Below, piece by piece: positions 3,619 through 14,709 of a stretch of DNA of 20,718 nucleotides (the first letter of the stretch is position 1; each line of letters opens with the position of its first letter). The translations under genes were made by a program, and so were the position numbers. This stretch comes from a virus, in IMG/VR virus record IMGVR_UViG_3300005753_000065, positions 1-20,718 of that record, one strand, 5' to 3'. Below the pieces are notes generated by a model that did not search any database, had not been told where the DNA came from, and worked only from the letters and a program-made list of their open reading frames with translations.

Positions 3619-4533
3619 ATGGCTAATCCATCAGGTTTGGTTACACAAGGTACAGAAGCACGTCTACTCCAAGAAGGTATCAATGCTATTGCTACGATAG
3701 AATACAAAGATAAAGAAATGGAGTACGACAAAATTTTCATCACGAAAAAGTCCGAAAAAGCTTACGAGCTTGACGTGTCGTTGTCACCATCAGGCTTAGC
3801 AAGTTTAAAGCCCGAAGGAACCGCGACAGCTTACGATGGTGAGAAACAAGACTTCACGACCACTTACACTCACGCCGTTTATTCATTAGGCACCATTATC
3901 ACAATGGAAGCTGCGATGAATAACTTGTATCGTGATTTAATCACCAAGGCCGGTAAAATACTTAAACGTTCATTGGTTCATACCGACGAACAATTAGCGG
4001 CTAACGTTATTAATAATGCTTACGATGCCAACTTTGCAATTGGTGACGGACTGCCCTTATTCTCAACGGCTCACTTGCTTGGTAAAGGTGGAACATTTTC
4101 TAATCGTTTCAGCGTTTTTACTCCGTTAAGTCAGGCAGCTGTTGAAGATGCGACTATTGCGGTCGAGGATTATCGTGACGGTGCCGGTCTGTTGATCGAT
4201 GCACGTGCAACCAGCTTGCATTTGCCGCGTCAATTACGTTACACAGCGGATCGAATCCTATCTTCTCGTTTCGAGCCAGGTTCAGCAAATAATGCAATCA
4301 ATCCCGTTGTCGATGTATTCCCAGGAGGCTACCACGTCAATCATCGATTCACGTCATCAACTGAGTGGCTTATTAAGACCGACATTGACGAAGGGTTTAA
4401 AATCTTTGATCGTATGGGTTATGTGTTTGATCAAGATAACGATTTTGGGACCAGTAATTATCGACATAAGGGTATGCTATACAAATCCTATGGGGTCACT
4501 GATCCTAGATGTTGTTACGGTTCCGGTCAGTAA
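3619..4533 (+). CDS. Major capsid (coat) protein, HK97 fold
   Basis: The 304-residue product has the layout of HK97-fold coat proteins of the gpT-like type. A helical N-terminal arm is followed by a strand segment (AYELDVSLSPSGLASLKPEG), then a long spine-helix region (MNNLYRDLITKAGKILKRSL). GLPLFSTAHLLGKGGTFSNR follows (from about residue 145), a signature of this coat subgroup. An A-domain contains LIDARATSLHLPRQLRYTADRIL, and the end carries DEGFKIFDRMGYVFDQDNDFGT...RHKGMLYKSYGVTDPR. It is shorter than P22 coat (430 residues), leaving no obvious room for the P22 insertion domain. The start at 3619 follows the upstream stop by one base, so the two genes are probably coupled. The role is fairly certain; the subgroup is from memory. 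Confidence 0.85.
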   Translation: MANPSGLVTQGTEARLLQEGINAIATIEYKDKEMEYDKIFITKKSEKAYELDVSLSPSGLASLKPEGTATAYDGEKQDFTTTYTHAVYSLGTIITMEAAMNNLYRDLITKAGKILKRSLVHTDEQLAANVINNAYDANFAIGDGLPLFSTAHLLGKGGTFSNRFSVFTPLSQAAVEDATIAVEDYRDGAGLLIDARATSLHLPRQLRYTADRILSSRFEPGSANNAINPVVDVFPGGYHVNHRFTSSTEWLIKTDIDEGFKIFDRMGYVFDQDNDFGTSNYRHKGMLYKSYGVTDPRCCYGSGQ

Positions 4534-4555: not shown

Positions 4556-4605
4556 TATGTCAGCATAGTTGCTCATTTTATATGGAGAGTGATTATGCTG
4601 ACATA
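4556..4605 (+). repeat. Perfect 12-bp inverted repeat spanning a start codon
   Basis: TATGTCAGCATA (4556-4567) and TATGCTGACATA (4594-4605) are exact reverse complements separated by 26 bases. The loop contains the ribosome site GGAG (4584-4587), and the right arm contains the ATG (4595-4597) of the HNH relic gene. In RNA the hairpin would hide that start codon. There is no downstream T-run, so it is not a simple terminator of the coat gene. Confidence 0.8.
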
Positions 4606-4795
4606 TCAAGAGGCTGCAACAGTGCTTGAGTACAACCCTGTTACCGGAGAGCTAAAGTGGCAATCGTACATTTGCATTGACAGTAAACAGAAATATCTAG
4701 GCGTTTACAAGTATCTTTGTGATGCTGAAACGGCAAGAAAAGAAGCAGAAATAAAGTACGGCTACCACAAGAATCACGGTAGAACCGATTTATAA
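4595..4795 (+). CDS. HNH endonuclease remnant with catalytic core deleted
   Basis: The 66-residue product joins the two ends of a phage HNH homing endonuclease. MLTYQEAATVLEYNPVTGELKW (1-22) is the usual N-terminus. Residues 25-50 (YICIDSKQKYLGVYKY then DAETARKE) resemble the AP2-like DNA-binding strands and helix. EAEIKYGYHKNHGR (50-63) is the C-terminal tail. Full proteins are ~150-170 residues; the ~90 missing here include the metal-binding His-Asn-His core, so no nuclease activity is expected. The frame is intact, so a short DNA-binding product could still be made. I chose ATG 4595 over GTG 4589 because GGAG at 4584-4587 fits it better. Position directly behind the coat gene is typical of free-standing homing endonucleases. 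Confidence 0.65.
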   Translation: MLTYQEAATVLEYNPVTGELKWQSYICIDSKQKYLGVYKYLCDAETARKEAEIKYGYHKNHGRTDL

Positions 4796-4840: not shown

Positions 4841-5779
4841 ATGACTACAATTTCCAGTTATCCGAATGGTTTTACTGATGGCGTTACTATCCGTGGTATG
4901 CCGATCTTACAAACCTACTCAGGGGAAATATTTTACGTTAGCAATGCCGATATTTTGTTAAGTAAGGGTAATCGGGTTGCAGGTTTAGACCAGGCGAGCG
5001 GCGGCACATTCAGTAGACCTTTTAGAACAATTGATTTTGCTGTTGGCCAATGTACTGCTAATCGCGGCGATATTATCATTGTGTTGCCAGGCCATACAGA
5101 AGACATTGCCAGTTCAACGTCATTGGTTATTGATGTGGCTGGGGTTGCTATTGTTGGACTTGGTTCTGGCTCACTACAGCCAGAATTGAATTTTTCAACG
5201 ACATCTGGATCCATTGAAATGGATGCAGCAAATTGCGCTTTAGTCAATCTCAATATAAAAGCTGATCTTACAGCGGTAGTCGTCGGTGTTAATGTCGATG
5301 CGAATAACTGTACTATTCAGGGTTGCACGTTTGATTATGCGAATACTGGTGATGATTTTGTTACTATGATCGATATCGATAATGTTAACGGTGCGGCGGT
5401 AATCGATTGCAGATTGATTGCAGAAGACGCCGCCGGTTGTGCCGAGGCTATTCGATTAGACAATTGTGACAATGTCATCATAGAAAACAATCATATTTAT
5501 GGTGATTTCACAGATGGCGCTATTATCGGCGAAGGTGCATCAGGTGTAAATCTGACTATCAGAAATAATACCATTTATAATTCTGACACGACAGCAGGTT
5601 TTTTGGTTGATTTGAATGTTGCATTTACGGGGCTATTAATAGGAAATCGTATGGGAACATTATTTGCAACAGCACCAGAAACAGCGGTAGATCCAGGAAG
5701 TTTACTTTGCTTAGAAAATTATGTTGCTAATGCGGTCGACGAATCTGGAACAATAGTACCAATAACCTTATCAACATAA
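4841..5779 (+). CDS. Beta-helix virion protein, copy 1
   Basis: This encodes 312 residues. The first ~110 (MTTISSYPNG..., FYVSNADILL, SRPFRTIDFAVGQCTANRGD, VLPGHTEDI) are shared closely with the product of 5931-6905. The rest consists of short repeating strands rich in Asn, Ile, Val and Asp (NCTIQGCTFDY, NVIIENNHIYGD, NLTIRNNTIYNS), the signature of a right-handed parallel beta-helix such as pectate lyases and tail spikes. No catalytic Asp/Glu set is evident. It lies among structural genes behind the coat gene, so it is probably a head fibre or decoration, perhaps carbohydrate-binding. AAGGGG just upstream supports the ATG. The virion role is inferred. Confidence 0.65.
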   Translation: MTTISSYPNGFTDGVTIRGMPILQTYSGEIFYVSNADILLSKGNRVAGLDQASGGTFSRPFRTIDFAVGQCTANRGDIIIVLPGHTEDIASSTSLVIDVAGVAIVGLGSGSLQPELNFSTTSGSIEMDAANCALVNLNIKADLTAVVVGVNVDANNCTIQGCTFDYANTGDDFVTMIDIDNVNGAAVIDCRLIAEDAAGCAEAIRLDNCDNVIIENNHIYGDFTDGAIIGEGASGVNLTIRNNTIYNSDTTAGFLVDLNVAFTGLLIGNRMGTLFATAPETAVDPGSLLCLENYVANAVDESGTIVPITLST

Positions 5780-5788
5780 GAGTTTTAA

Positions 5789-5914
5789 ATGACGACTATT
5801 TCTAACTATCCATCTGGTATAAATAGAATAGGCAATCAAAGAACGGATGATATTGGGGCAGCAAAAACCTCAAACGACACGTCCGCTTCTGTAACAGTGT
5901 CAACTGATGCTTAA
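5789..5914 (+). pseudogene. Collapsed third copy of the beta-helix gene (41-codon minigene)
   Basis: The frame reads MTTISNYPSGIN, the start of both neighbouring beta-helix proteins. It then jumps directly to IGNQRTDDIGAAKTSNDTSA and on to a stop, which is the last ~28 residues of the 5931-6905 product. About 280 residues of the expected middle are absent and the frame is preserved. The 5' end differs from both neighbours at many third codon positions, so it is its own old copy; the 3' end is almost identical to that of the next gene. A weak AAGAG ribosome site precedes it. It may still be translated; I class it as a degenerate copy left by an internal deletion. Confidence 0.75.
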
Positions 5915-5920
5915 ATTGGA
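5828..5920 (+). repeat. 93-bp direct repeat, left copy
   Basis: This is 93 bases matching 6819-6911 with two differences (T/C at 5854/6845 and T/G at 5911/6902). Both are synonymous third codon positions. The repeat covers the coding end, the stop codon and the first bases of the intergenic spacer, and the two copies bracket the second beta-helix gene at an offset of 991 bases. Confidence 0.9.
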
Positions 5921-5930
5921 TATAAAATAA

Positions 5931-6905
5931 ATGACAACAATTTCAAATTATCCAAATGGAATCAATGGTTTGTTGCTTCGTGGTGTACCGACGATCATAC
6001 CGCATCCAGGTCAGAGTTTTTGGGTAAGCAATGCGGACGTTTTATTGAATAATGGGAATTCGGTAGTTGGGGTTGATCAAGCTGGCGGCGGGGAATACCA
6101 AAGACCCTTTAGAACAATCGATTTTGCAATAGGACAATGTACTGCCAATCGTGGTGACGTTATTTACGTCATGCCTGGTCATGTCGAGACGATAACTGCA
6201 TCAGGTGGACTCAATTTAGATGTTGCTGGAATTACCATTATTGGTTTAGGTAGAGGGACGTTACAACCAAGAATTGACTATACCGCTACATCTAGTTCTG
6301 TTCAGATCAACTCATCGAATGTTTCGATCTGTAATGTTAATTTCCATGCTAACGTTACAAGCGTTACGTTAGGAGTTGATATTGTAGCGTCATCATCAGA
6401 CACATTAATAAAAGGGTGTTATTTTGACGTTGAAACAACAGCAACGGACGAATTTTCTATTGTTATAGATATAAAGACTGGTTGCAACAGAACAATTGTA
6501 GAAGATAATATAATTGATATGGGCTTAGGTGGTAGCAATACTGGTGTTCGTTTATCGGCTGGTATTAGTACTGGTGTTGTCATAAAAAATAACAGAATAG
6601 TAGGTGATTATTCGGCGGGTTGTATTGCCACTACATTTTCGGGGATAACTGAATTGTACATCGAAGATAATCTGTTGATGCAAGGTGGCACAGGAAACCT
6701 AAATGCTGTAGCGGTAATCAACAATAATGCAAACACAACAGGCGTTGTGAGAAATAACGATATTGTTTGTGATGTCGCGACTTTTGCATTGCAAACAGTC
6801 GCAAATGGAATGACATTTATAGGCAATCAAAGAACGGATGATATCGGGGCAGCAAAAACCTCAAACGACACGTCCGCTTCTGTAACAGTGTCAACTGATG
6901 CGTAA
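5931..6905 (+). CDS. Beta-helix virion protein, copy 2
   Basis: The 324-residue product is a paralogue of that of 4841-5779. The N-terminal block is nearly the same (MTTISNYPNG, FWVSNADVLL, RPFRTIDFAIGQCTANRGD, VMPGHVETI), while the C-terminal two thirds have diverged but keep the beta-helix pattern (NVSICNVNFHANV, TIVEDNIIDMG, GVVIKNNRIVGDY, ELYIEDNLLMQG). It ends in a Thr/Ser/Asp-rich tail (SNDTSASVTVSTDA) that copy 1 lacks. The likely role is a capsid-surface or fibre protein with a conserved attachment end and a variable outer part. The ribosome site is weak (GGAT). The gene is bracketed by the 93-bp direct repeats. Confidence 0.65.
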   Translation: MTTISNYPNGINGLLLRGVPTIIPHPGQSFWVSNADVLLNNGNSVVGVDQAGGGEYQRPFRTIDFAIGQCTANRGDVIYVMPGHVETITASGGLNLDVAGITIIGLGRGTLQPRIDYTATSSSVQINSSNVSICNVNFHANVTSVTLGVDIVASSSDTLIKGCYFDVETTATDEFSIVIDIKTGCNRTIVEDNIIDMGLGGSNTGVRLSAGISTGVVIKNNRIVGDYSAGCIATTFSGITELYIEDNLLMQGGTGNLNAVAVINNNANTTGVVRNNDIVCDVATFALQTVANGMTFIGNQRTDDIGAAKTSNDTSASVTVSTDA

Positions 6906-6911
6906 ATTGGA
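6819..6911 (+). repeat. 93-bp direct repeat, right copy
   Basis: Partner of 5828-5920, forming the true 3' end of the second beta-helix gene plus its downstream spacer. Recombination between the copies would remove the whole intervening gene and leave the minigene intact. Confidence 0.9.
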
Positions 6912-6920
6912 GAATAAAAA

Positions 6921-7445
6921 ATGTCACAACAATGGTTTTTAGATCAAGCGAGATTGGGTAATGTATATCATTCTCACAATACGACCTCCGGAGCTGTTAC
7001 TGTTCTTAGTGCAACTTGTACAGGATTGGTTATTGAAAATCCATTCGGGTCAAATCAAGATTTAATCATAGAAAGTATGTCTTTTGTTGGGTCGACGCTT
7101 TCAACTATTCGAGAGATTGGTGTGGCGGTTAACGCGACTATCGATCAAACGGGCTCGACCACTACGACTGCAGCCGTCATTCATAACGGGCGAAACACTG
7201 GGAGTAATGCTGATGTAGGTGTAGCCCAGTCGTTTAGTATTGCAACATTGCCAGCAGCACCAGTATGGTTGCGCTCAATCGGTAATGCTCGGGTAACTGG
7301 TGCGGTAGAAGGTTTAACAGCTATCAAGGCAGAGTTTGATGGTACGTTGATTGTTCCGCCTGGCGGGTTTATCTGCTTTTCAACGCTCACAGCAGCGGCA
7401 ACCGGTTTATGTTCGGCAACATGGGCCGAAGCGGATATTCTGTAA
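6921..7445 (+). CDS. Small beta-rich virion protein
   Basis: This encodes 174 residues with almost no Lys, rich in Thr, Ala, Val and Ile, suggesting a beta-sandwich. Features are SNQDLIIESMSFVGSTLSTI in the middle and EFDGTLIVPPGGFICFSTLT near the end. The same layout (NLFIGDISIGAVETVLW, then RFDGSLILGPGDAIAVEY) occurs in the product of 12156-12704, so the two are probably distant paralogues. There is no enzyme motif or membrane segment. GGAG at 6909-6912 serves the ATG. Its place among head-surface and neck genes indicates a structural role; the exact site in the virion is unknown. Confidence 0.6.
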   Translation: MSQQWFLDQARLGNVYHSHNTTSGAVTVLSATCTGLVIENPFGSNQDLIIESMSFVGSTLSTIREIGVAVNATIDQTGSTTTTAAVIHNGRNTGSNADVGVAQSFSIATLPAAPVWLRSIGNARVTGAVEGLTAIKAEFDGTLIVPPGGFICFSTLTAAATGLCSATWAEADIL

Positions 7446-7849
7446 TGGCTCACAAAATAACCGTTACCAATATTTTACCAGGGGAGCATCGTTCGCAATT
7501 TCACGTCTTTTTATTGAGTGACGGAGTATCAGGAGAATTATCCGATTATGTATTAATCGATCCTGTTGCCGATTTAGGTATCAACAGTATTGGTAGACCA
7601 GCTATCGAGATGATCACTTATAACTTTGCCGGATTCGATGCTAGAGTGGAATTCGATTCTGGATTGGTGGATGATAATATGATATGGGTGTTACCTCAAG
7701 TCGGTGATAACCATATTGATTTCAATCCTTGGGGTGGTTTAAAAGATAAGTCAGGCATTGATGGTACTGGAAATCTACAGATAACAACAACTGGATTCGG
7801 TGCTGCAGATAGCCAAGGATCAATATTGTTAATGGTGAGGCACAGCTAG
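7445..7849 (+). CDS. Conserved virion-associated protein
   Basis: This encodes 134 residues from an ATG overlapping the upstream stop (TAATG), which I prefer to the in-frame ATG at 7409 inside the previous gene. The sequence starts MAHKITVTNILPGEHRSQFH and includes VLIDPVADLG, FAGFDARVEFDSGLVDD and WGGLKDKSGIDGTGNLQI. From memory this resembles a small structural protein found near the beta-propeller gene in several podoviruses. It is beta-rich with no catalytic motif. It ends in a TAGTG overlap with the next gene, so the two are coupled and perhaps partners. Confidence 0.6.
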   Translation: MAHKITVTNILPGEHRSQFHVFLLSDGVSGELSDYVLIDPVADLGINSIGRPAIEMITYNFAGFDARVEFDSGLVDDNMIWVLPQVGDNHIDFNPWGGLKDKSGIDGTGNLQITTTGFGAADSQGSILLMVRHS

Positions 7850-9063
7850 TGGGTCGACGTTATCGGTCATTCTCTACATTTTCACCGAATGATAGTAATA
7901 CAATTTGTGATGTCACTGGCTTTAAATCAAAAATAAGTCAGGTTGTTAAGCGCTGGGAAGGTTTTATGGTTATCCCAGAAGCGTTTCATCCTAGGCAGCC
8001 TCAAGATTTTCCCGTTATACCTGTAACTCAGCAAATATTCCCTTCAAGGGTAGAACCTAATATAGAAAGTGTTACGACTTGTTATGACCCTCCTATAATT
8101 TGGTCAAAAAAGGACGACGTTACAGGCGATCTATACAGCGTTTGCGAAAACAATGGATTATGGGTAACGGTTGGCGATGGTGGTCTAATCTATACGTCTA
8201 ACGATGCGGGCGAATCATGGGAGCAGCAAACATCAGGCATATTAAACGATTTAAGATCCATAAAATACTGGAATGGTAATTGGTATATTGCATCAATGAA
8301 TATTGGTGGTGCCGCACCACCAATATTGAAATCGGCTGATGCTGTAATATGGGTAGACCTTGGCGTTACGTTTACAAACGAAAGCTACGTAGATATAGCT
8401 GTAAATGATACAAATTTACTTATAGTCGGCTGGGATAATGAAACGTCGTATTACTTACAGACTTCTGATGGGATAAGTTTTAATCAATATGTGTGGGCGA
8501 ATGAAAACAATTTACGTGGCTATGGAATTGCCTGGAATTCTCTAGATAGTAATTGGGGGGTTGTTGGTGGCGGTGGGTTTTCAGATTTATTAGGCCCGAT
8601 ATTTTCCCTTGTCGACGAAGCGTTTAATTGGACAGAAGGAAGCGTAACCGGTGCAACAGATGCGTTATGGAGCATTGACCATGATGGTACTAACTGGATA
8701 GTTGCCACAAAACCAACACAGATATACACCTCTTTAGATGGCCTAACTTGGACTTTGCAAACTAATCAAAGTATGGGAAGCGATAGCCCTTGGAAATTGA
8801 GTCATAATAATGTAACCGGATGCAATTCGGTCACTATTTTGCTTTGTGGTGGCGATACGCTTGGAAAAATAATAATGTCAAATGATCATGGCGTAACCTG
8901 GACACAAAGTTATATCTCTGATACTACGGTTACAAATATGAGCGAAGCACATTATGCACAAGGTATTTGGATGGCGGTTGGCTATAACGGAAGGGTAATT
9001 GTTGGAATTGCTGATGCTTCCGTATTGAATTCAACTATAGCAGAAATAGTCGGAGTAATTTAG
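7849..9063 (+). CDS. Virion protein with Asp-box beta-propeller
   Basis: The 404-residue product begins at a GTG overlapping the upstream stop. Residues 1-75 form a separate N-terminal module (GFKSKISQVVKRWEGFMVIP, then RQPQDFPVIPV) like conserved starts of other podovirus structural proteins, probably the attachment end. Residues ~85-390 are a beta-propeller with Asp-box (BNR) motifs: SNDAGESW at 117-124, TSDGISF at 205-211, TSLDGLTW at 294-301 and SNDHGVTW at 344-351. Blades carry WVTVGDGG, NWIVATKP and WMAVGYNG. Asp-box propellers occur in sialidases and sugar-binding proteins, but the sialidase Arg triad is not evident, so binding is likelier than hydrolysis. It could be a side appendage that recognises host glycans. 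Confidence 0.7.
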   Translation: MGRRYRSFSTFSPNDSNTICDVTGFKSKISQVVKRWEGFMVIPEAFHPRQPQDFPVIPVTQQIFPSRVEPNIESVTTCYDPPIIWSKKDDVTGDLYSVCENNGLWVTVGDGGLIYTSNDAGESWEQQTSGILNDLRSIKYWNGNWYIASMNIGGAAPPILKSADAVIWVDLGVTFTNESYVDIAVNDTNLLIVGWDNETSYYLQTSDGISFNQYVWANENNLRGYGIAWNSLDSNWGVVGGGGFSDLLGPIFSLVDEAFNWTEGSVTGATDALWSIDHDGTNWIVATKPTQIYTSLDGLTWTLQTNQSMGSDSPWKLSHNNVTGCNSVTILLCGGDTLGKIIMSNDHGVTWTQSYISDTTVTNMSEAHYAQGIWMAVGYNGRVIVGIADASVLNSTIAEIVGVI

Positions 9064-10040: not shown

Positions 10041-11451
10041 ATTTTTATTAAGCGGTCGAGAAAGTGATTACGATTCTAAAAAGAATCGAGGCCGGTCTAT
10101 CAATATCATTAATGAAGGAAATGGAAAAGAATTTATCAGCGCACGTCGTACCGACGGATTAACGTTGTTTGCGACATTACCGGCGGGGCCAGTGCGTTCC
10201 GATCTTTTGGTTAACGATGGTTTTGTCTACGTTGTATCAGCGGGAACATTATACAGGGTTAATATACTTGGAAATGTAGAAACTCTTGGAGCTGTCGGTG
10301 GCGTAGGTCGTGCCAAATTGGCGGCTAATGCGTTTCCAGGCGATTCACAGATAATGGTTTTAAATGGTTCCGGTGCTGGTTACATTTACACTAATACTAA
10401 TGGTTTGGTAAAAATAACAGATTTTGATTTCAACTTAAGTTCGTCGGTTACAGTATTAAATGAGAGATTTTGGTTGTCAAAGGATAATAGTAACGAGTTT
10501 TTCGGGTCTTTATTGTCAGATGGCAATCAGTATAATCTTAATTCTGCCGCTAGCGCCGAAGAATCGCCCGATAATGTTGTCGCTGTAATAGCAAAAAAAT
10601 CCGCATTGTGGGTGCTTGGTATTAATACTACTGAGTATTGGCAAACTACTACAGACCCTGATTTACCATTACGGGCTGTTAGAGGTGGGTCTAAAGAGTG
10701 GGGGATTATTGCTAAGGATTCGTTAGCAGAAGTTAATGATAACTTTGCATTTTTAGCAAGTGATCGAACCGTTAGGTTGATGCGTAACAACCAGTTAACA
10801 AAAATATCTAACCTTGAATTTGAATTGAAAATTAAAGGGAATGGCACGACAGCTTTTCCAGGTTTTACGACTATCTCGGATGCTTATGGGTTTTTCGTGG
10901 ATGGGCCGATACATTCAATTTATTACATTACGTTTCCGACAGAGGGTTATACTTGGGGGTACGATATAAACTCAGGGTTATCGCATACCAGAGAATCGGA
11001 AACCCTTGGGTATTGGCGTGCTAATGGCGCGGTAAAACTTAACGAAAAAATAATATGTGGCGATACTCAAAGCGGTATTTTATGGCAGTTAGACCCTGCC
11101 AATAAAACTGAAAACGGTGCAATTATGCGCGCTACTCTTATCACTCCTACTGTATCTTACGAGAAAAACGTAACCATTCCATTGATTGAAATTGATATGG
11201 AAGTGGCGCAAAACGACGATCCGACTATTAATCCAAAGATGATCGTATCTTATACAAAAGACGGCGGAAACACCTATACTAATAAAGGTCATGTTGATCT
11301 AGGTAATTTTGGTGATCATAGAAAGCGAGTACCTTTACGCAGTTTTGGAAGGTTAGTCCGTCATAAAGATTTTGGTATCAAGTTAGAGATAACGGACGCC
11401 GTTGGTGTTAGGTTTTATGGTGCACATATCTATCCTAGGATGGGCATGTAA
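10033..11451 (+). CDS. Packaged DNA stabilisation protein, P22 gp10-like
   Basis: This encodes 472 residues, the same length as P22 gp10. Repeating strand blocks (LLVNDGFVYVVSAGTLYRVN, FFGSLLSDGNQYNLNSAASA, ALWVLGINTTEYWQTT, NFAFLASDRTVRLMRNNQ) give a beta-propeller-like body. GYFGFVDG-type and tail elements (ISDAYGFFVDG, YYITFPTEGYTWGYD, then VGVRFYGAHIYPRMGM) match the gp10/tail-hub family. The C-terminal ~110 residues form a second beta domain. gp10 assembles below gp4 and forms the hub that binds tailspikes and the needle. The start overlaps the previous gene, and the stop overlaps the next start (TAATG), so the tail-plug genes are translated as a unit. Confidence 0.8.
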   Translation: MAKFLLSGRESDYDSKKNRGRSINIINEGNGKEFISARRTDGLTLFATLPAGPVRSDLLVNDGFVYVVSAGTLYRVNILGNVETLGAVGGVGRAKLAANAFPGDSQIMVLNGSGAGYIYTNTNGLVKITDFDFNLSSSVTVLNERFWLSKDNSNEFFGSLLSDGNQYNLNSAASAEESPDNVVAVIAKKSALWVLGINTTEYWQTTTDPDLPLRAVRGGSKEWGIIAKDSLAEVNDNFAFLASDRTVRLMRNNQLTKISNLEFELKIKGNGTTAFPGFTTISDAYGFFVDGPIHSIYYITFPTEGYTWGYDINSGLSHTRESETLGYWRANGAVKLNEKIICGDTQSGILWQLDPANKTENGAIMRATLITPTVSYEKNVTIPLIEIDMEVAQNDDPTINPKMIVSYTKDGGNTYTNKGHVDLGNFGDHRKRVPLRSFGRLVRHKDFGIKLEITDAVGVRFYGAHIYPRMGM

Positions 11452-13342: not shown

Positions 13343-13696
13343 ATGTCAGTAAAGTATATTGATGTAGTACAAGAACAGGTTACGGTGGCTAATGTAACGA
13401 TGTACACGGCACCGATATCATCCAGCTTTGAGAGTGCTCATATTATATTTTGTAATTGCACCAACGAAGGTATTGTTGATACTGAACTGACTATTAATAT
13501 CGTTCAGCAAGGTGGTTCTGTTTCGGTAACAAATCAGTATTTTCCTCCAAAAGTTATATTTGCTGGGCGGACTGATCCGTTAACACCACTTGTTGGAGTT
13601 ACGTTAAAGGCCGGAGATTTTATCAGCAGTATTGGCGAGTTTGTGAGTAACTTAAATTTAAAGATAACGGTTAAGGAAATATATTCAGATGCGTAA
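13343..13696 (+). CDS. Small beta-sandwich virion protein
   Basis: The 117-residue protein has the pattern VTMYTAPISSSFESAHIIFC, LTINIVQQGGS, then PLVGVTLKAGDFISSIGEFV and LKITVKEIYSDA. From memory this is a widespread small phage structural protein with the layout v..YTaPa...a.v......N.......v.i.l...g.....l....L..GD.i.......v.v...gvE. It usually lies beside tail or decoration genes. The ATG is preceded by GTGAGG at 13334-13339. The last 8 bases overlap the sulfotransferase-like gene. Location in the virion is inferred, not shown. Confidence 0.6.
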   Translation: MSVKYIDVVQEQVTVANVTMYTAPISSSFESAHIIFCNCTNEGIVDTELTINIVQQGGSVSVTNQYFPPKVIFAGRTDPLTPLVGVTLKAGDFISSIGEFVSNLNLKITVKEIYSDA

Positions 13697-14168
13697 ATTT
13701 TTTGTGGTTGGATTGCCACGAAGTCGAACGTATTGGATGAGCATTTATTTATATTGTACGCATGAGGCATTTCATTATAATGAAAATTACAAAACATTTA
13801 TGGACAGCAAAAGCTTTGGAGATTCAACAACGTGCTACCCTTGGATTAAAAATTATATTACTGATAATCCTATTGTCGTTATAGAAAGAGATTTAGATGA
13901 ATGTTTTCAGTCATCGATAAAGTTATTTCCAGATATTAAAATAAAAACACTGGAACATATGCAATCAGAATTGGAAGGTATCGATGTTTGTTTACGTATA
14001 AAGTACGAAGATATCAACGAACGGTTACAAGAGATTTGGGAGTATTGCCACGAATCGCCGTTTAATAGCGTTAGAGCTGAAAAATTAAAAGATAATCACA
14101 TGGAAAACTATCCTTTAATTGAGGCAACGCAACAAGAGATTAAAAAATTGTATGCCGCAAACGCATAA
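13689..14168 (+). CDS. Sulfotransferase-like P-loop protein
   Basis: The 159-residue protein opens with FFVVGLPRSRTYWMSIYLYC (4-23). GLPRSRT fits the phosphate-binding loop of PAPS-dependent sulfotransferases (G.PRSGT). ERDLDECFQSSIKLFP (about 67-82) fits the second PAPS-binding region (R...D...S). It is shorter than usual (~250-300), so the acceptor-binding part is reduced and activity is uncertain; it might be a non-sulfating P-loop relative. Homologues are known in some phage structural clusters, but their target is not established. It overlaps genes on both sides and is paired with a hydroxylase-like gene, suggesting joint modification of a virion protein or a host surface molecule (inference). 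Confidence 0.6.
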   Translation: MRKFFVVGLPRSRTYWMSIYLYCTHEAFHYNENYKTFMDSKSFGDSTTCYPWIKNYITDNPIVVIERDLDECFQSSIKLFPDIKIKTLEHMQSELEGIDVCLRIKYEDINERLQEIWEYCHESPFNSVRAEKLKDNHMENYPLIEATQQEIKKLYAANA

Positions 14169-14709
14169 AAAACTTGATTTAGTTGTTGATACCAAGCCAC
14201 TAAAAAGAGCGCTTGCAACGCATAGCTATTTGTTTGACCAGTTTACGTTTAGAAAAGATGACCCCAGATCACCACATGTAGAAATGTCAGATATTATTTT
14301 CAGATATCGAGATATACGATTTTACAATGATGACAGAGATAAATTTAATGAAGAACACACGGCAGTTTGGTACGAGTCGGCACAAATAGTGCCATGTGTT
14401 AAAGATATCGTATTTCGTATCATGACTTATGTGCGTGGAGAACAGCTTGGTATGGTGTTGTGTACTAAACTTGGACCAGGTAAGAAAATTTACCCGCATA
14501 CGGATAGTGGGTGGCATGCTACTCATTATTCTAAATTTTACGTAGCGGTAAAGAACGAACCAGGCGCAGTATTCAGTTTTGTTGATGGCAGCATTGATCC
14601 AAATGAAGGGGAAATATTTATGTTTGATAACTCGCAATTGCATCAAGTAGATAATGATTCAACGGCTGAACGAATCGCGTTAATCGTTTGCATTAAAGGG
14701 GAATTCTAA
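14152..14709 (+). CDS. 2-oxoglutarate/Fe(II) dioxygenase, Asp/Asn hydroxylase-like
   Basis: This encodes 185 residues from ATG 14152, overlapping the previous gene by 17 bases; the in-frame start at 14119 would overlap far more. The double-stranded beta-helix signature is complete: iron ligands H116 and D118 in YPHTDSGWH, distal ligand H164 in SQLHQVDN, and R174 in ERIALIV placed to bind 2-oxoglutarate. KFYVAVKNEPGAVFSF and GEIFMFDN are the intervening strands, as in aspartyl/asparaginyl beta-hydroxylase-type enzymes. Such enzymes hydroxylate Asp, Asn, Pro or small molecules. Phage copies are common in aquatic viruses with unknown targets. The neighbouring sulfotransferase-like gene suggests a two-step modification, which is inference. 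Confidence 0.75.
   Translation: MPQTHKKLDLVVDTKPLKRALATHSYLFDQFTFRKDDPRSPHVEMSDIIFRYRDIRFYNDDRDKFNEEHTAVWYESAQIVPCVKDIVFRIMTYVRGEQLGMVLCTKLGPGKKIYPHTDSGWHATHYSKFYVAVKNEPGAVFSFVDGSIDPNEGEIFMFDNSQLHQVDNDSTAERIALIVCIKGEF

Follow-up and report, generated by a model that had tools for sequence, protein, structure and literature searches.

The coat gene and its neighbours

The window, by which the whole analysed stretch of 20,718 nucleotides is meant (IMG/VR virus record IMGVR_UViG_3300005753_000065), carries behind its coat protein gene two genes for beta-helix proteins, termed bh1 and bh2, a short open reading frame between them, termed the stub, and a direct repeat of 93 bp which the ends of the stub and of bh2 share. 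The features are as follows.

3619-4533, + strand: major capsid (coat) protein gene; Pfam PF25209 Phage_capsid_4 above the cut-off; relatives at 84% identity or less
4595-4795, + strand: HNH homing-endonuclease remnant, in which an in-frame deletion has removed the middle and KWQ marks the join of start and C-terminal tail
4841-5779, + strand: bh1, beta-helix protein gene; PF13229 below the cut-off (E 9e-5); groups with L101/L014
5789-5914, + strand: stub, probable 41-codon relic of a third bh gene with the start joined to the tail, as judged from the sequence and a length equal to that of the predicted bh2 deletion product
5828-5920, + strand: upstream copy of the 93-bp repeat, consisting of the 3' part of the stub and spacer (sequence, self-match)
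5931-6905, + strand: bh2, beta-helix protein gene; AlphaFold2 parallel beta-helix, pLDDT 80.6; in a clade with L004/L005/L006
5953-5962, + strand: first of two copies of the 10-bp direct repeat CAAATGGAAT, at the 5' end of bh2
6802-6811, + strand: second of the CAAATGGAAT copies, at the 3' end of bh2 and in the same frame as the first
6819-6911, + strand: downstream copy of the 93-bp repeat, consisting of the end of bh2, the stop codon and spacer with the start of the next gene's ribosome site
6921-7445, + strand: downstream structural-region gene, located after a single bh gene in L023, L039, L051 and L190

The remnant at 4595-4795 is 75% identical to the start and the tail of the HNH gene found at the same site in L042, where the copy is cut by the contig end, while L043 has a complete HNH_3 gene at this site. 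The catalytic HNH core is missing from 4595-4795, start and tail alone aligning to L042/L043, and the L042 gene carries the 8-bp repeat AAATGGCA at both breakpoints. At L028, the tail alone is left at the HNH site (10794-10862), and another HNH endonuclease C-terminal tail (ARHAAEIKYGFHRNHG) is found in the window at 436-507, at the end of the first gene and before the open reading frame at 541. Selection against polarity in a late operon may be the reason why both remnants of the window are still in frame.

Downstream of the bh genes, a scan with the protein encoded at 6921 found one locus, L190, which carries a single bh gene. The product of 7849-9063 (404 aa) starts with approximately 64 residues corresponding to a conserved protein, which has 82-98 aa in most relatives, here fused with a domain rich in repeats that carries motifs of the GDGGLIYTSNDAGESW type; no Pfam family was found above the cut-off. 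Farther on, an aspartyl/asparaginyl beta-hydroxylase-like gene (14119-14709; PF05118, E 2e-9) adjoins a weakly sulfotransferase-like open reading frame (13689-14168).

Two beta-helix genes of probably different origin

The label beta-helix, which an earlier note had assigned from the sequence, is borne out by the AlphaFold2 model of bh2, a parallel beta-helix with pLDDT 80.6 and pTM 0.83, and by the fold search, where the best PDB matches of bh are polysaccharide-cleaving enzymes and tailspikes at approximately 13% identity. On the level of sequence families, bh1 reaches 22.6 bits against Pfam PF13229, below the cut-off of 25.9, and bh2 has no PF13229 match; PHROGs holds no family for bh1 or bh2, and a PDB sequence search with the bh profile gave no match. 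Residues 26-100 in the N-terminal part of the bh proteins are conserved and the C-terminal half is variable, a pattern which suggests a conserved attachment part combined with a variable surface. Encoded directly behind the coat gene, the bh proteins are likely placed on the head. Proteins of the same slot that are not beta-helix proteins (L022, L043, L047, L056 and others) also start with an M(S/T)xxxYPNG-like motif, possibly a shared anchor peptide.

In the tree, bh1 (with L101/L014) and bh2 (with L004-L006) fall into separate clades with support of 100/99 each, and the coat proteins of these phages are only distantly related to the coat protein of the window (34-39% identity for L004-L006, 28% for L014). 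The window's two copies would therefore most likely have come from different lineages by exchange. A recent duplication of bh1 giving rise to bh2 was rejected, with the two in different clades and at 17-36% identity in the C-terminal half.

A repeat made of two gene tails

The 93-bp direct repeat (5828-5920 and 6819-6911) agrees at 91 of 93 bases over a spacing of 991, exactly as had been claimed for it. The BLASTN self-match of the window (E = 2e-43) excludes a chance origin. Both mismatches, T/C at 5854 and T/G at 5911, are synonymous third positions, and the longest exact run is 56 bp. While the earlier note was right about the position of the copies and about their content of coding end, stop codon and spacer, the upstream copy is not free-standing, as it lies inside the intact 41-codon open reading frame of the stub, which falls under the usual size limit of open reading frame lists. 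Since the upstream repeat comprises the stub's last 29 codons (stop counted) and spacer, the two repeats are, as read from the DNA, homologous gene tails rather than free flanking elements. No further occurrence of the repeat was detected in other phages by BLASTN, among the loci or in the viral collections, and a repeat family shared across phages was rejected; none of 40 other loci with a bh gene shows a comparable flanking repeat.

The stub is translated as MTTISNYPSGINR followed by IGNQRTDDIGAAKTSNDTSASVTVSTDA, with the repeat-encoded part opening IGNQRTDD. Its start MTTISNYPSGIN resembles the starts of bh genes and its end that of bh2, so both ends of a known gene are joined and the beta-helix core is missing. 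Within bh2, the 10-bp direct repeat CAAATGGAAT occurs in frame at 5953-5962 and 6802-6811, and a deletion between the copies predicts an open reading frame of 126 nt, the exact length of the stub, which aligns without gaps to the predicted product with 37 of 41 residues identical and four different. Upon shuffling of the bh2 codons (n=2000), an in-frame repeat of at least 10 bases joining both ends arose in 31 cases and the stub length in none. In the AlphaFold2 model, the predicted deletion takes residues ~11-293 and with them the whole helix, leaving the disordered N-terminus and the last strands. The length match is exact, with the CAAATGGAAT copies at 5953 and 6802 known from bh2 and not from the stub's own parent gene.

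A slot with a varying number of genes

The earlier note had proposed a comparison of relatives for zero, one or two copies at this site, and the number of bh genes indeed varies. The stretch from the coat gene to the gp4-like gene is fully visible in 64 loci, some of which are repeats or near-copies of one contig; 16 of the 64 have no bh gene and 48 have one, and in this comparison the window alone has two. L106 holds two tandem bh genes, and the 51-kb contig IMGVR_UViG_3300010234_000140 carries at least four bh genes in a tandem array behind the coat gene (L114 1-2252 and L127 5983-7654). Both ends of this contig lie inside the array, where two copies match exactly over 53 bp. The same contig has a GIY-YIG endonuclease open reading frame just upstream of the coat gene. 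Since bh1 and bh2 fall into different clades, the differences among phages resemble the outcome of horizontal exchange and not that of unequal crossing-over at the 93-bp repeat. A close relative with another arrangement was not found by exact pattern scan of viral contigs, the phages collection gave no DNA match, and no relative emerged from a genome scan with the head-closure protein.

Origin of the repeat

The reading preferred here, at a probability of about 0.8, is that the 93-bp repeat is the surviving tail of an internally deleted third bh copy, the outcome of ordinary duplication and decay in a variable slot. The order at the locus would then most likely be bh1, deleted bh relic, bh2, all descendants of one beta-helix gene family. 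Extra bh genes would arrive by duplication and by exchange with other phages, slippage or illegitimate recombination at short repeats would remove the core of the third copy, and the stub's tail would have stayed, or have been kept, nearly identical to that of bh2 through recent duplication or gene conversion. Homologous recombination across the 93-bp repeat could later excise or amplify bh2 as a side effect, and not as a dedicated switch. Consistent with a relic, the varying number of bh genes (0, 1, 2) and the arrays elsewhere show that copies come and go, and the neighbouring HNH remnant has lost its middle in a similar way, between the repeats seen in L042. A simple duplication of bh2 followed by deletion does not suffice, as the first 39 nt of the stub agree with bh2 at 29 positions (26/39 with the predicted product) and the following 93 at 91; a hybrid origin or conversion of the tail must be added. 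The deletion therefore probably took place in a diverged third gene whose tail was later homogenized, or else the stub is a hybrid.

Against a relic stands that the stub is still open and has a start codon, so that a function is possible. That it encodes a functional protein of 41 aa, an N-terminal anchor and a C-terminal tail with the helix left out, such as a small peptide that binds the capsid or has a regulatory role, is nevertheless very unlikely. The frame is intact, the two changes relative to the bh2 tail are synonymous and the start MTTISNYPSG resembles the motif which opens many proteins of the slot, not all of them beta-helix proteins; yet two substitutions are too few and the constraint on bh2 itself could account for them, the bh2 model shows partial disorder in the residues of each piece, and neither a stub-like open reading frame nor a bh tail outside a bh gene was found in the other loci (approximately 190 for the former). 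An assembly artefact is highly improbable, even though the window is a metagenomic contig of the IMG/VR record and assemblers of short reads may join repeats wrongly: at the left junction of the stub (5827/5828), any shared sequence is too short to cause a k-mer misjoin and the repeat copies can be told apart at 5854 and 5911, which makes misassembly unlikely, and the stub is an in-frame open reading frame of the length that a deletion predicts.

The earlier note had interpreted the locus as a gain/loss or swapping cassette, in which recombination at the 93-bp repeat would regularly excise or amplify bh2 and produce mixed virions. A repeat of approximately 90 bp with an exact run of 56 bp is long enough for recombination of the RecA or Red type, which makes it plausible in principle that bh2 is occasionally lost or amplified. 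When the 991 bases are removed in silico, bh1, the stub and gene 6921 remain, the last with an intact GGAG ribosome site, in line with the claim that excision would spare the neighbours, the number of bh genes differs among relatives, and the 51-kb contig breaks precisely where copies in its array match. Such potential is, on the other hand, a consequence of any recent duplicate. Regular switching is unlikely: no relative carries such repeats, the variation among relatives involves divergent clades, as expected from exchange and not from excision at the 93-bp repeat, the stub offers a simpler origin for the repeat, and a near-identical strain with a second arrangement was not found in the collections searched. 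What the sequence comparisons support is gain and loss of bh genes over evolution, and not a gain/loss or swapping device; a dedicated cassette is not supported, given the explanation of the repeat as the tail of a deleted copy and the different clades of bh1 and bh2. It is quite unlikely that the stub together with the bh2 tail would serve as a recombination landing pad, where the tail left by a frame-safe deletion would allow new beta-helix genes to enter, leave or multiply behind the coat gene, such that one population would contain virions with different surface proteins. The literature on repeat-flanked phage virion genes yielded no paper describing this form.

Meaning and comparison with known systems

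As a relic, the stub makes the window a record of the stepwise build-up and erosion of a phage variable slot, where genes from different lineages would stack behind the coat gene and surplus copies, as well as the homing endonuclease, would be shortened by deletions that run from one short repeat to another and keep the frame. Were bh2 shown to be excised across the 93-bp repeat in a real population, mixed virions would arise by a simple route.

In phage and poxvirus gene arrays, genes are duplicated in tandem and copies are deleted or converted. The window shares with them neighbouring paralogues, near-identical patches and copy-number variation among relatives, whereas amplification inside one phage population has no counterpart in the window data.

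With respect to the encoded proteins, bh shares the parallel beta-helix fold with phage tailspikes and pectate-lyase-type enzymes (Pel9A, TM 0.60), but differs from them in its low identity and in its gene position. The beta-helix cement protein LH3 of atadenovirus (PDB 5g5n, 6qi5) is among the fold matches of bh, albeit a weak one (TM about 0.2), and the bh genes lie directly behind the coat gene, a position from which their proteins may be placed on the capsid. The capsid decoration protein Dec of phage L has an OB fold in contrast to the beta-helix of bh (PMC6449081).

A close likeness in mode of decay is provided by homing endonucleases, the genes of which decay in ICP1 and other phages by in-frame deletion next to essential genes, including, as reported for ICP1 gp174, deletion between internal repeats, and are variably present beside the capsid gene (PMC10448857). 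The window has an HNH remnant of this type directly beside bh1. Unlike in decay of the ICP1 type, in the window not the endonuclease alone, but a beta-helix gene too would have been reduced to its start and tail.
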